From an uncultured Holdemania sp. (lineage in GTDB: Bacteria; Bacillota_I; Bacilli_A; Erysipelotrichales; Erysipelotrichaceae), in contig CAMQTJ010000018.1 in NCBI GenBank assembly GCA_947037125.1, positions 1 through 37,641 on the forward strand: a stretch of DNA of 37,641 nucleotides. Reading direction: 5' to 3'. The position numbers and the translations under genes are program-made. This document shows, one piece after another, positions 27,197 through 32,161 of this stretch. Numbering within the stretch: the stretch's first letter is position 1; the number at the start of each line of letters is the position of its first letter. The notes under the pieces are model-generated. The model did not search any database. It was given only the letters and a program-made list of their open reading frames with translations, and was not told the origin of the DNA.

Positions 27197-28084
27197 ATGT
27201 ATGAAAAATTAACTACGCTATTAAATCTTGCGATTAATAATGATGTGACTGATATACACTTTCAACTTAAAAATGGTAATTTATTTATTCAGTTTAGAAA
27301 AAATGGTGATATATATCAATATAACAATGATTTATTAGATAATAAATTCTTTAATTATATCCAATATCAAGCTAATTTAGATGTTTCTAATTTAACTGCA
27401 CCACAATCTGGAAGTTTTGAAATAGAAATTAATGATTATTTGTATGCAATTAGAATTTCTATTGTGCATTCATTAAATATTTCTAATTGTGTTTTAAGAA
27501 TTTTAAATAAACAATTAAATTTAAAAATAAATCAATTAACATATTGTAAGGATGATGTTATTCAATTAGAAAAGATGATTTTGCATAAAAATGGCTTGAT
27601 ATTGATTTGTGGTTTAACAGGCAGTGGTAAAACAACAACACTTTACACATTATTAAATCATATTAGTTATAAAAAAATATTTACATTAGAAGATCCAGTA
27701 GAACTTTATAATGAAAATTTTGTGCAACTTCAAATTAATGAAAAACAAAATTTGACTTATGAAAGTGGTATTAAACAACTTTTAAGGCACGATCCTGATG
27801 TTATAGTAATAGGTGAAATAAGAGATAGTATTGCCGCTAAGATGGCTTTAACAAGCGCTCTTACAGGGCATTTAGTGATTAGTACAATCCATTCATCAAA
27901 TTGTTATATAGCAATAAAAAGAATGCTTGATTTAGGGGTTAATTTAAGTAATTTAAAAGATGTTTTGATTGGAGTAAGTTATCAAACTATAAAGGATGTT
28001 GACTCGCATAAAAAGATTGGTGAATATGAAATACTAAATGGTGTTTTACTTAATGAATATTTGAATGGTATTAAAAATGTATAA
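27197..28084 (+). CDS. comGA: Competence pseudopilus assembly ATPase
   Basis: The 295-residue GspE/PilB-type ATPase powers assembly of the competence pseudopilus at the inner face of the membrane. It has Walker A GLTGSGKT (139-146), the Asp box region FTLEDPVE, Walker B in DPDVIVIGEIRD (199-210) and the His box in GHLVISTIHSS (224-234). It is shorter than B. subtilis ComGA (about 350 residues) at both ends and lacks the tetracysteine zinc motif of PilB. It opens the seven-gene comG operon, with AGGGAGG 5 nt before the ATG. Its 3' end overlaps comGB. Confidence 0.92.
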   Translation: MYEKLTTLLNLAINNDVTDIHFQLKNGNLFIQFRKNGDIYQYNNDLLDNKFFNYIQYQANLDVSNLTAPQSGSFEIEINDYLYAIRISIVHSLNISNCVLRILNKQLNLKINQLTYCKDDVIQLEKMILHKNGLILICGLTGSGKTTTLYTLLNHISYKKIFTLEDPVELYNENFVQLQINEKQNLTYESGIKQLLRHDPDVIVIGEIRDSIAAKMALTSALTGHLVISTIHSSNCYIAIKRMLDLGVNLSNLKDVLIGVSYQTIKDVDSHKKIGEYEILNGVLLNEYLNGIKNV

Positions 28085-29066
28085 AATAAAGAAAAAACAA
28101 TATTTAAGTAGTGAATTATGCAATGATATTTGTAGTTTGCTTGATAGTGGTTTATTTATAAAAGATTGTTTAGCTGTATTAGATGATAATAAACTTATCA
28201 ATAAAATGATTGATGAATTAGTTCAAGGTAATTTAATCAGTGATATTATTTGTAATTATCTTAGTAAAGATATTTTAGTTAATTATAAATCGTTTATCAA
28301 ATATCTAGATTTTAATCAATCACTTAAGCTATCAATGGAGGTTTGTACTTACTTTAACCAAATTAAGCAAGAAAGCTATAAAAAATTAATATATCCAATT
28401 TCGATGTTTTTAATTACTATTGTGGGTTTAATATTATTTAGTAATTATGGATATAGTTTGATGGTTAATATGTTTACAAGTTTTAGTTTAGATTATCAGA
28501 ATTTAGAAATGATTTTTTCTTTTATAAATGCATTAATTATTATATTAGTAACATTTGTTTTGTTTGTATTTAGTTGTTTTATATTATTTCGTAGTGAAAA
28601 ATATCAAATTATCATTTATATTATTTTAACTAAATATAAATTGACGTTTTTTTTGAAGGATTATTATAGTAATCAGTTTGCTTTTTATTTAATGAAATTT
28701 AATAATTATGGTACAAATACATTAGCGTCATTAGAAATGATAAATAATTGTAATGATAAGGCAATGCTTAAATTCATGGCTTATCATGTAGATCAACTGT
28801 TACAAAGCGGAGAAAAATTAGATAATTCGATTAGTAATGTTTATATTGATTGTAAATTAGCTCATTATATTAAATTATCTTATTTTAATAATAATTTAAG
28901 TGAAATGTTGAATATATATATCCAACAAAATAAAACTAAACAAATTCGTTTTATTAAAAAACTTACAATAGCTATACAATTATTTAGTTATATAGCTATA
29001 GGGTTAATTATTATTGTTGTTTATCAAATATTATTTATACCTTTGTCAATTATATCAAAAATGTGA
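28077..29066 (+). CDS. comGB: Competence pseudopilus inner-membrane platform protein
   Basis: This 329-residue GspF/PilC-family protein has three membrane segments: about residues 105-127 (ISMFLITIVGLILF), about 145-170 (IIILVTFVLFVFSCFILF) and near the C-terminus (AIGLIIIVVYQILFIPL). Two cytoplasmic GspF domains are weakly conserved. The family's GxxLxxxL pattern in the second is replaced by SGEKLDNSISNVY. The start could be the ATG at 28065 or at 28077. Both lack a ribosome-binding site, so translation is probably coupled to comGA, whose stop they overlap. I chose 28077 because MYKIKKK gives the more usual basic start. Confidence 0.82.
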   Translation: MYKIKKKQYLSSELCNDICSLLDSGLFIKDCLAVLDDNKLINKMIDELVQGNLISDIICNYLSKDILVNYKSFIKYLDFNQSLKLSMEVCTYFNQIKQESYKKLIYPISMFLITIVGLILFSNYGYSLMVNMFTSFSLDYQNLEMIFSFINALIIILVTFVLFVFSCFILFRSEKYQIIIYIILTKYKLTFFLKDYYSNQFAFYLMKFNNYGTNTLASLEMINNCNDKAMLKFMAYHVDQLLQSGEKLDNSISNVYIDCKLAHYIKLSYFNNNLSEMLNIYIQQNKTKQIRFIKKLTIAIQLFSYIAIGLIIIVVYQILFIPLSIISKM

Positions 29067-29646: not shown

Positions 29647-29794
29647 AAAAGGTTATGTAATTATAGATGCTATTATTGTTATGTTTATTTTGATGATGGT
29701 TGTGAATATTGTTTTTTTATGTGTTTTGAGTCTTGATAATACAAATAATTTGATTGATAGTAAAATCATGGAAATTGATTTAATATATGAATAA
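29636..29794 (+). CDS. comGE: Very short minor pseudopilin, ComGE-like
   Basis: A 52-residue frame from the ATG at 29636 to TAA at 29792-29794 encodes a protein starting LSKKGYVIIDAIIVMFILMM. The KKG-Y prepilin cleavage motif, the hydrophobic helix (about 7-32) and the +5 Asp are clear. Only about 20 residues follow, so it has almost no globular domain and is shorter than known ComGE proteins (about 90-115). It overlaps comGD by 11 bp and comGF by 8 bp, in a different frame from each, which supports a real translated gene in a tightly coupled operon. Its small size makes it easy to miss in automatic annotation. Confidence 0.7.
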   Translation: MLSKKGYVIIDAIIVMFILMMVVNIVFLCVLSLDNTNNLIDSKIMEIDLIYE

Positions 29795-30179
29795 AAAGGG
29801 GTATGCAATAATTGATGTTATAATTTCTATATTAATAATATGTATATCAATGCCACTAATTTATAGCACTTATAAAATAATTGGTAATAATGAAATGTTT
29901 CCAGTTGTCATTCAAGATCAAATAGGTTTAACACAATTAAGAAGAGTTATGAATACATGTTATGACATTGATATTCAATATAATACCTTAAGTTGTATTT
30001 ATAAGGATGAAGTAATAAGTATTCAAACAAGTAGCAATAATACTTTTATTAGTGACGGTACTTTAATTATATTTAGTGGCGTTAGTGATATATTTTTTAC
30101 AGTTTTACAAAATAAAATATATTTGAATTATTTAAGAAATAGTAAGTGGGAAAAAGGATTTATTAGTTATGTTCAGTAA
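29787..30179 (+). CDS. comGF: Minor competence pseudopilin ComGF-like
   Basis: The 130-residue protein starts NKKGYAIIDVIISILIICI, again a class III prepilin signal with Asp at +5. After the hydrophobic helix comes QDQIGLTQLRRVMN (about 53-66), where the QLRR element resembles the ComGF domain, followed by a beta-rich part (YNTLSCIYKDEVISIQ, SDGTLIIF). The ATG overlaps the ComGE-like stop by 8 bp, without its own ribosome-binding site. The name follows operon order plus the QLRR element. Confidence 0.75.
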   Translation: MNKKGYAIIDVIISILIICISMPLIYSTYKIIGNNEMFPVVIQDQIGLTQLRRVMNTCYDIDIQYNTLSCIYKDEVISIQTSSNNTFISDGTLIIFSGVSDIFFTVLQNKIYLNYLRNSKWEKGFISYVQ

Positions 30180-30731: not shown

Positions 30732-31289
30732 ATGATTATAGTAAATGATTTAAAACCGGGAACAACTTTTGAAAAAGACAAAAACATTTTTATCGTGATT
30801 AATATTTCTCACAATAAAACTGCTATGCGTCAAATGATTGTTAAGTTAAAGGTAAGAAATTTAAGATCTGGTGTTATCAATGAAATCTCTTTTACAGGTG
30901 GAGAAAAAGTTGAACAAGCAATGATTGAAAAGAAAGTTATGCAATATCTTTATGATGAAGGTGATGCTATCGTATTTATGGATAGTGAAACTTTTGAGCA
31001 AGTTGAAATTAATAAAGAACGTCTTGAATGGGAAATGAAATTCATGAAAGAAAGCGACAATGTTGTTATCTCAATGTATGAAGAAGAAATTTTAGGTGTT
31101 ATTTTACCTGATAAAGTTGAATTAAGAATTAAAGAGTGTGAAGTTGGTGTTAAAGGTGATACTGCTACTTCTGCTACTAAAAATGCAACTTTAGAAACAG
31201 GATTAGATATTAGAGTTCCATTATTTATTACTGAAGGAGAAATGGTTTTAATTTCTACTGCTGATGGTAAATATTCGGGTAGAGCATAA
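30732..31289 (+). CDS. efp: Translation elongation factor P with a non-canonical loop
   Basis: The 185-residue protein has three beta domains. It rescues ribosomes stalled on polyproline. It matches EF-P along its length: MIIVNDLKPGTTFE at the start, VKLKVRNLRSG, KVMQYLYDEGD, MDSETFEQVEI, GVKGDTATSATKNATLETG and VPLFITEGE. The domain I loop that reaches the peptidyl-transferase centre is normally PGKG (modified Lys32 in B. subtilis). Here the aligned residues are NKTAMRQ, with Met32 and Arg33, so the usual Lys is absent. EF-P variants with Arg at the tip are known to need other modifications or none. No efp-modification gene is in this window. The gene is monocistronic, with a terminator at its stop. 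Confidence 0.92.
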   Translation: MIIVNDLKPGTTFEKDKNIFIVINISHNKTAMRQMIVKLKVRNLRSGVINEISFTGGEKVEQAMIEKKVMQYLYDEGDAIVFMDSETFEQVEINKERLEWEMKFMKESDNVVISMYEEEILGVILPDKVELRIKECEVGVKGDTATSATKNATLETGLDIRVPLFITEGEMVLISTADGKYSGRA

Positions 31290-31555: not shown

Positions 31556-32161
31556 ATGAATAACAAAAAATTATTATCTACAAGAAACATGAGTATTATT
31601 GCAATATTAAGTGCTATGGCTACAATTTTGCTGTATTTTGATTTTCCGATTCCTTTTTTACCACCATTTTATAAATTGGACTTTAGTTCGATACCTGCAT
31701 TAATTGGAGGCTTTGCTATTGGTCCCATGGCGGCTGTTGTAATTGTTGTTTTAAAAATTATTTTGAATTTATTAATTCAAGGTTCTAATTCTGCATTTGT
31801 GGGTCAAATCGCTGATTTTGTTTTAAGTATTGCATTTATATTCCCATCTGTACTTTATTATCATAACAAAAAAAATAAAAAAGGAGCTATAATAGGATTA
31901 TTATTAGGAGTTTTATCTCTTTGTGTTTTTGGCGGAATATTTAATTACTATTTTTTGATTCCGGCTTATTCTACATTATATAAAATGCCAATAGAAACTA
32001 TTATTCAAATGGGGACTGTTGTATTTCCATTTATTAATGATAAATTTACTTTTGTACTGTTTGTAACAAGTATTTTTAATATTATTAAAGGATTATTGCT
32101 TTCGATTATTACATTAAGTATTTATAAACAAATATCAATTATCATAAAAAGAGTGAAATAA
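31556..32161 (+). CDS. ribU: Riboflavin ECF-transporter S-component
   Basis: The 201-residue membrane protein binds riboflavin and works with the ECF energising module (EcfA/A'/T, not in this window) to import it. Six hydrophobic segments are seen. Family signatures are MSIIAILSAMATILLYFDFPIPFLPPFYKLDFSSIPALIGGFAIGP, here read as helix 1 and the Lxxxx-DFSDIPAL-like riboflavin-binding segment, and NYYFLIPAY in the middle. The FMN riboswitch upstream makes the assignment secure. AAGGAG lies 6 nt before the ATG. The organism therefore depends at least partly on imported riboflavin, in line with the FMN/FAD flavoprotein at 3278. Confidence 0.95.
   Translation: MNNKKLLSTRNMSIIAILSAMATILLYFDFPIPFLPPFYKLDFSSIPALIGGFAIGPMAAVVIVVLKIILNLLIQGSNSAFVGQIADFVLSIAFIFPSVLYYHNKKNKKGAIIGLLLGVLSLCVFGGIFNYYFLIPAYSTLYKMPIETIIQMGTVVFPFINDKFTFVLFVTSIFNIIKGLLLSIITLSIYKQISIIIKRVK

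Follow-up and report, generated by a model that had tools for sequence, protein, structure and literature searches.

A methionine-tipped elongation factor P is the only EF-P found in an uncultured Holdemania genome and recurs across Erysipelotrichaceae

The charged, usually modified tip residue of its β3-β4 loop is considered the functional end of elongation factor P (EF-P). Canonical Lys-type EF-Ps, such as those of B. subtilis and E. coli, carry a modified lysine in a PGKG loop, and the rhamnosylated Arg-type EF-Ps that occur with EarP (Pseudomonas, Neisseria) have Arg32 and no proline two places before it. In T. thermophilus EF-P, Arg32 contacts tRNA residue C75 and, in 23S rRNA, the phosphates of C2064 and C2065 (PMC2821294). 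EfpL (YeiP), which bears an arginine on an extended loop, is an unmodified paralogue with overlapping function (PMC11611912). Firmicutes are reported to lack yjeA/yjeK (PMC2821294), and over half of bacteria have no gene for any of the known EF-P modification enzymes (PMC6544042). A methionine tip is itself already known and has been on record as a rarity since 2010. Of the organisms lacking yjeA/yjeK, 3.4% were counted with it (PMC2821294), and it was reported for 0.77% of 1166 EF-Ps, in no case together with a proline at −2 (PMC6544042); methionine is also among the tip residues listed for EF-P (PMC11611912). The two surveys report these proteins as percentages, and their passages on tip residues describe no lineage, sole-copy status or basic neighbor (PMC2821294, PMC6544042). 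At the level of titles and abstracts, we found no published description of the lineages that carry a Met tip, of its sole-copy status or of the neighboring basic residue.

Here, we describe an EF-P with this tip residue from an uncultured Holdemania sp. The window (the whole stretch of DNA that was analyzed) comprises 37,641 nucleotides of contig CAMQTJ010000018.1, assembly GCA_947037125.1, and its features are collected in Table 1. In profile searches, the efp product scored 217 bits against the efp equivalog TIGR00038 (cut-off, 185.8) and exceeded the cut-offs of all three Pfam domains, EFP_N, EFP, and Elong-fact-P_C, which places it among EF-Ps. The EfpL/YeiP profiles remained well below cut-off (NF003392, 124.6 of 216; TIGR02178, 106.7 of 264).

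Table 1. Features of the window around the Met-tip efp gene
Feature	Positions	Strand	Basis
Upstream pair of genes from a comG-like pilus operon: T2SSE ATPase (27197-28084) and ComGB/T2SSF-like (28065-29066)	27197..29066	+	Profile searches
Upstream ORF of 130 aa without a Pfam match; pilin-like neighbor cluster common to Gln-tip and Arg-tip loci	29787..30179	+	
efp gene encoding a 185-aa EF-P of the Met-tip type, the sole EF-P found in this genome	30732..31289	+	Translation, profile searches
β strand 3, residues 18-28, ends at N28	30783..30815	+	AF2 model; coordinates from codon numbers
Seven-residue β3-β4 loop, K29-T30-A31-M32-R33-Q34-M35	30816..30836	+	Translation, AF2 model, alignment
Met32 codon ATG, loop tip, Lys/Arg position of other EF-Ps	30825..30827	+	AF2 model, alignment
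Arg33 codon; TAMAK relatives have Ala33 and Lys34	30828..30830	+	Loop comparison
β strand 4, residues 36-43	30837..30860	+	AF2 model
S component of an ECF transporter, immediately downstream; neighbor cluster shared by loci with Met, Gln, Leu, and Arg tips	31556..32161	+	

The tip loop (HNKTAMRQM in context) stands in place of KPGKG with no insertion or deletion. Aligned with S. aureus EF-P (6rk3) and T. thermophilus EF-P (1ueb), the protein shows no gap across the loop, and TAMRQ falls opposite PGKGS and LGRGG; thus, Met32 occupies the Lys/Arg position of other EF-Ps. (The B. subtilis residue numbers are those of the original prediction; our alignment was made against the S. aureus and T. thermophilus proteins.) The top Foldseek matches of an AF2 model of the protein (mean pLDDT, 87.9; pTM, 0.68; 39 rows), which we used for loop geometry and not for side chains, were EF-P structures (6s8z, TM 0.91; 9a6x, 0.88), consistent with an EF-P fold that includes the β3-β4 loop. 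In this model, the two flanking strands and the seven-residue loop between them put Met32 at the loop center and Lys29 at the base. The original prediction that no lysine stands at the tip is therefore borne out by alignment and model alike, and Lys29, which it had considered as the possible true tip, is a base residue present in PGKG and Arg-type loops too.

The protein resembles canonical Lys-type EF-Ps in fold, length, and the lysine at the loop base, but it has T30-A31-M32 where the Lys-type signature has a tip lysine and a proline at −2. Lack of that proline is shared with the rhamnosylated Arg type and with the Met-tip proteins of the surveys, whose proline-free −2 position was reported without exception (PMC6544042). 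Unlike the EarP-type proteins, however, it has methionine at the tip and arginine at residue 33, and its loop is of ordinary length, seven residues that align without gaps, in contrast to the extended loop of EfpL/YeiP.

To survey relatives, we used the DNA pattern NKTAMxxM, which misses Met-tip loops of differing make-up, such as the NKTAMREG loop of one genome of another family (G462, f23). The pattern matched 118 of the 195 genomes of the window's own family, Erysipelotrichaceae, and in 117 of them the match lay within EF-P (the match in G181 did not and was set aside). Loop codons in relatives vary synonymously at K29, T30, A31, R33, and Q34, and this variation, together with recurrence in 117 of 195 genomes, excludes a chance origin of the loop. 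A frame or assembly error behind the Met loop is likewise ruled out, since the loop recurs in other genomes. Among the named relatives are Holdemania, Bulleidia, Traorella, Dielma, Anaerorhabdus, and many metagenome-assembled genomes labeled Solobacterium. The nearest relatives of the window's EF-P are 80% identical to it, and the proteins in our alignment A1 range from 46 to 80% identity; K29 never varies among them, and N28 and A31 hardly do. In a sample of the class (296 genomes), the pattern matched in 60; outside the family, an NKTAM EF-P was present in 31 of 32 genomes of family f8 and in all 6 of family f19, whereas the matches in G044, G329, and G336 were stray, on contigs other than the EF-P contig of those genomes.

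In many of these genomes the Met-tip protein is the sole EF-P. EFP_N was found in 182 of the 195 family genomes. With the Lys-type label assigned at E-values below 5e-22 (the loop itself was read at 38 such Erysipelotrichales loci, some genomes contributing twice), 71 genomes had the Met type only, 46 had it with a canonical Lys type, 7 had the Lys type only, 15 had another type with a Lys type, 43 had a single other type, and 13 had none, a last figure that may be too high because neither profile search returned a candidate from G019 or G081, two genomes that may be unreadable. The corresponding counts for the 124 good genomes (at least 90% complete and at most 5% contaminated) were 48, 30, 2, 12, 27, and 5. 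Among the 71 are the single-contig genomes G107 and G148 and the window's own genome, whose 135 contigs (95.69% complete) yielded one EFP_N match and hence not the second, canonical efp that would have told against the original prediction. That a canonical copy was missed through incompleteness alone is unlikely, since genus-mates G001 and G003 are single-copy as well, although at 95.69% completeness some chance of it remains; no EF-P was detected in a third genus-mate, G002. Each of the f8 and f19 genomes with a match also had one EF-P copy (37 of 37, including the single-contig G428). Because the Met-tip EF-P is common to several families as the sole copy, it resembles a stable variant more than a gene in disrepair. 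The original prediction had argued against decay as well, and the conservation of the loop across relatives bears this out.

Loop comparison revealed a regularity next to the tip. Across 241 distinct EF-Ps, with three whose loops are of another length set aside, all 131 with an uncharged Met (122), Gln (8), or Leu (1) tip had Arg33 or Lys34, compared to 0 of 39 with an Arg tip and 0 of 67 with a Lys tip. Among the 122 Met-tip proteins, residue 33 was Arg in 105 and Ala in 17, and all 17 of the latter had Lys34. Arg33 is written with five different codons in those 105 proteins, indicating that the residue is kept and not the DNA. N28, K29, T30, and A31 were identical in 122 of 122, many of these loci having been gathered with a query or pattern that favors them. 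The positive charge thus seems, from these alignments, to have moved along the loop. Arg33 is not a strict substitute for the tip charge, as the Ala33/Lys34 proteins show, and the single Asn-tip EF-P (L246, f15; SANSM within KSANSMA), in which neither residue 33 nor residue 34 is basic, counts against a charge shift. The best 99-row tree, a quick tree from which seven long or odd rows and most PGKG rows were dropped, shows each trait changing four times, with one independent pair where branches have good support, and a single origin of the pattern would also fit it. A 128-row tree has two independent pairs, one of which shows no contrast in the basic residue. The pattern is therefore a strong regularity, not a proven correlation, and it rests on few events.

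Met-tip EF-Ps are closest to a group of Arg-tip proteins. In the 128-row tree, built without the loop columns and after near-identical rows were left out, the Met-, Gln-, and Leu-tip proteins fall together with the Arg-tip EF-Ps of Erysipelotrichales and Mollicutes-like genomes with a support of 88, which is not strong; PGKG proteins, including the Erysipelotrichales PGKG paralogue, fall apart from this group. Several of the Mollicutes-like genomes can be read solely with table 4, and this code and the size of the genomes lead us to infer that they are Mollicutes. The Arg-tip proteins (TGRQQ, QGRGQ, TARSA, and TARAA) share with the Met-tip ones the loop length, the absence of a proline at −2, and the absence of EarP in the family sample, but they carry the charge at residue 32, and their residues 33 and 34 are not basic. 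PGKG, the yardstick of the original prediction, consequently proved the wrong reference, as the PGKG EF-P is a separate gene, about 40% identical to the Met-tip one, that many relatives keep beside it.

Within one genus (g73; L213 to L220 and L255 to L258), Gln and Met tips interchange, 3 of the 12 loops read being TAMRQ and 9 TAQRQ, both with Arg33-Gln34; one genome (G150) has the Leu-tip loop TALRQ. The pilin-like gene upstream was found at 60 of 121 Met loci, 8 of 9 Gln loci, and 7 of 38 Arg loci, and ECF/cmk-type neighbors downstream at 72 of 121, 9 of 9, and 12 of 38, respectively, counts that are lower bounds because many loci are short. On the basis of this interchange within a genus and of neighbors common to Met, Gln, and Arg loci, the tip residue appears to have changed in place. 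The collection also held loops of other lengths (VLQNKVAY, one residue short, and VPTKRGSV, at L253 and L254 of f21 and L260 of f20), a Lys tip without a proline at −2 (KTAKSGA; L240, f22), and a strongly diverged third EF-P copy with 27% identity and the loop KAGNGAG (L124, in G024).

The canonical PGKG gene of Erysipelotrichales has a neighborhood of its own (L112 to L161, e.g., L113, L142, and L144). It lies directly before a FabG-like SDR gene at 33 of 38 loci, some genomes being represented twice, and behind a conserved membrane protein of ~407 aa at 30 of 38. Elsewhere, an SDR gene adjoins efp at none of 34 further Lys-tip loci and at 1 of the remaining 169. In B. subtilis, YmfI is itself an SDR. 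Given this adjacency and the nature of YmfI, the SDR may be a dedicated EF-P reductase that was lost together with the Lys-type gene.

We also searched for the known modification enzymes. EarP had no match in the window's genome. It was found in 1 of the 195 family genomes (G197, contig C126:3114-4561), beside a third EF-P on one contig, probably through contamination or transfer; since the 14 control genomes lack EarP, this match is the sole sign that the search works. The best TIGR00462 (EpmA) score in the window's genome, 219.5 bits in a 499-aa frame, was below the cut-off of 286.9. The YmfI model was unusable as a marker of 5-aminopentanol: it had seven SDR matches in the window's genome, none listed over cut-off, and it matched all 14 control genomes too and 192 of the 195 family genomes, 1 over cut-off. 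With no EarP and EpmA below cut-off, an unmodified factor is the simplest reading. The original prediction that the loop may use an arginine without the usual modification agrees with these searches, but its choice of Arg33 in particular does not extend to the 17 of 122 proteins with Ala33 and Lys34.

Collectively, these comparisons suggest, with a probability of roughly 60%, that the protein is a functional EF-P of the Mollicutes/Erysipelotrichales group that works without posttranslational modification. As an uncharged and unbranched residue, Met32 would pack at the tip, and the tRNA and 23S rRNA contact made elsewhere by Lys32 or Arg32 would fall to a basic residue just after it, either the next one (Arg33) or the one following that (Lys34, where residue 33 is Ala). 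By analogy with T. thermophilus, that residue could make contacts like those of Arg32. From sequence and predicted structure, we infer ribosome binding, rescue activity, the Arg33/Lys34 contacts, and the absence of any modification. An unmodified, working EF-P finds support in B. subtilis, where the K32R variant, from which the modification is removed, suppresses the swarming defect of ymfI (PMC5885033). Against it, E. coli EF-P is inactive when K34 is replaced by A, M, N, or Q (PMC6544042); those variants, however, have a PG-K-G loop with no basic residue next to the tip, unlike the Met-tip loop. More tentatively, Met, Gln, and Leu tips might define a separate class of EF-P, one never modified, with the uncharged tip packing on the CCA end, the basic residue 33 or 34 on phosphate, and a stalling-motif spectrum of its own (a shift in motif specificity was also among the possibilities raised by the original prediction), and forming the sole EF-P of several whole families.

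Alternatively, the Met-tip EF-P could be a specialized paralogue. Like EfpL in E. coli, it would then serve only some stalling motifs and leave the general task to a canonical Lys-tip EF-P or to ABC-F proteins. EfpL, a paralogue that is Arg-tipped, unmodified, and overlapping in function (PMC11611912), offers a precedent, 46 of the 117 Met-tip genomes also have a canonical PGKG EF-P, and the four ABC-F matches in the window's genome could carry rescue load. We nonetheless consider this unlikely: 71 of the 117 have no second EF-P, nor does any sampled f8 or f19 genome with EF-P; EfpL profiles score well below cut-off; and the loop is independent of the Lys-type gene, which is present in 32 of 92 TAMR genomes and 14 of 25 TAMAK genomes.

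A weakened EF-P on its way out, with poor polyproline rescue tolerated by proteomes that have few Pro-Pro motifs, is quite improbable. The inactivity of the K34M variant of E. coli EF-P (PMC6544042) fits such a view, and in a sample of 105,696 aa from the window's genome, Pro-Pro was underrepresented (47 observed; observed/expected ratio [O/E], 0.70) and PPP absent, against 2.1 expected. However, O/E ranged from 0.41 to 0.82 in all nine genome samples, including Lys-tip and Arg-tip genomes, so that the count to which the original prediction had pointed does not stand out, and polyproline depletion, which showed no contrast between tip types in these small samples, was discarded as a sign of a poor EF-P (PPP is too rare in them for comparison). 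Identity of 46 to 80% with an invariant K29 and near-invariant N28 and A31 is, moreover, not expected from decay. Demand for EF-P persists: the window's genome keeps an IPPPNVTG motif in an 873-aa ORF that we take to be ValS, and this Pro-Pro-Pro motif also occurs in 67 of the 71 genomes with the Met type alone and in 43 of the 46 that have a Lys type as well, although its retention in 9 of 13 genomes without detected EF-P makes it weak evidence for EF-P activity. An undescribed modification of Met32 (e.g., a sulfonium) or Arg33 (a group added by an enzyme other than EarP) is highly improbable, because the interchange of Met with Gln or Leu among close relatives and of Arg33 with Ala33 leaves no constant target, no enzyme-like neighbor common to Met-type loci was recognized among the largest neighbor clusters, and nothing direct favors it beyond the many bacteria without a known modification enzyme (PMC6544042).

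Relative to the literature that we found, the lineage-wide distribution, the sole-copy status, and the apparent charge shift are new, and the pattern is worth testing. It is open to residue swaps, and named isolates are among the matches (Holdemania, Bulleidia, Traorella, and Dielma). Families in which the Met-tip protein is the sole EF-P would show how EF-P manages without a charged, modified tip.
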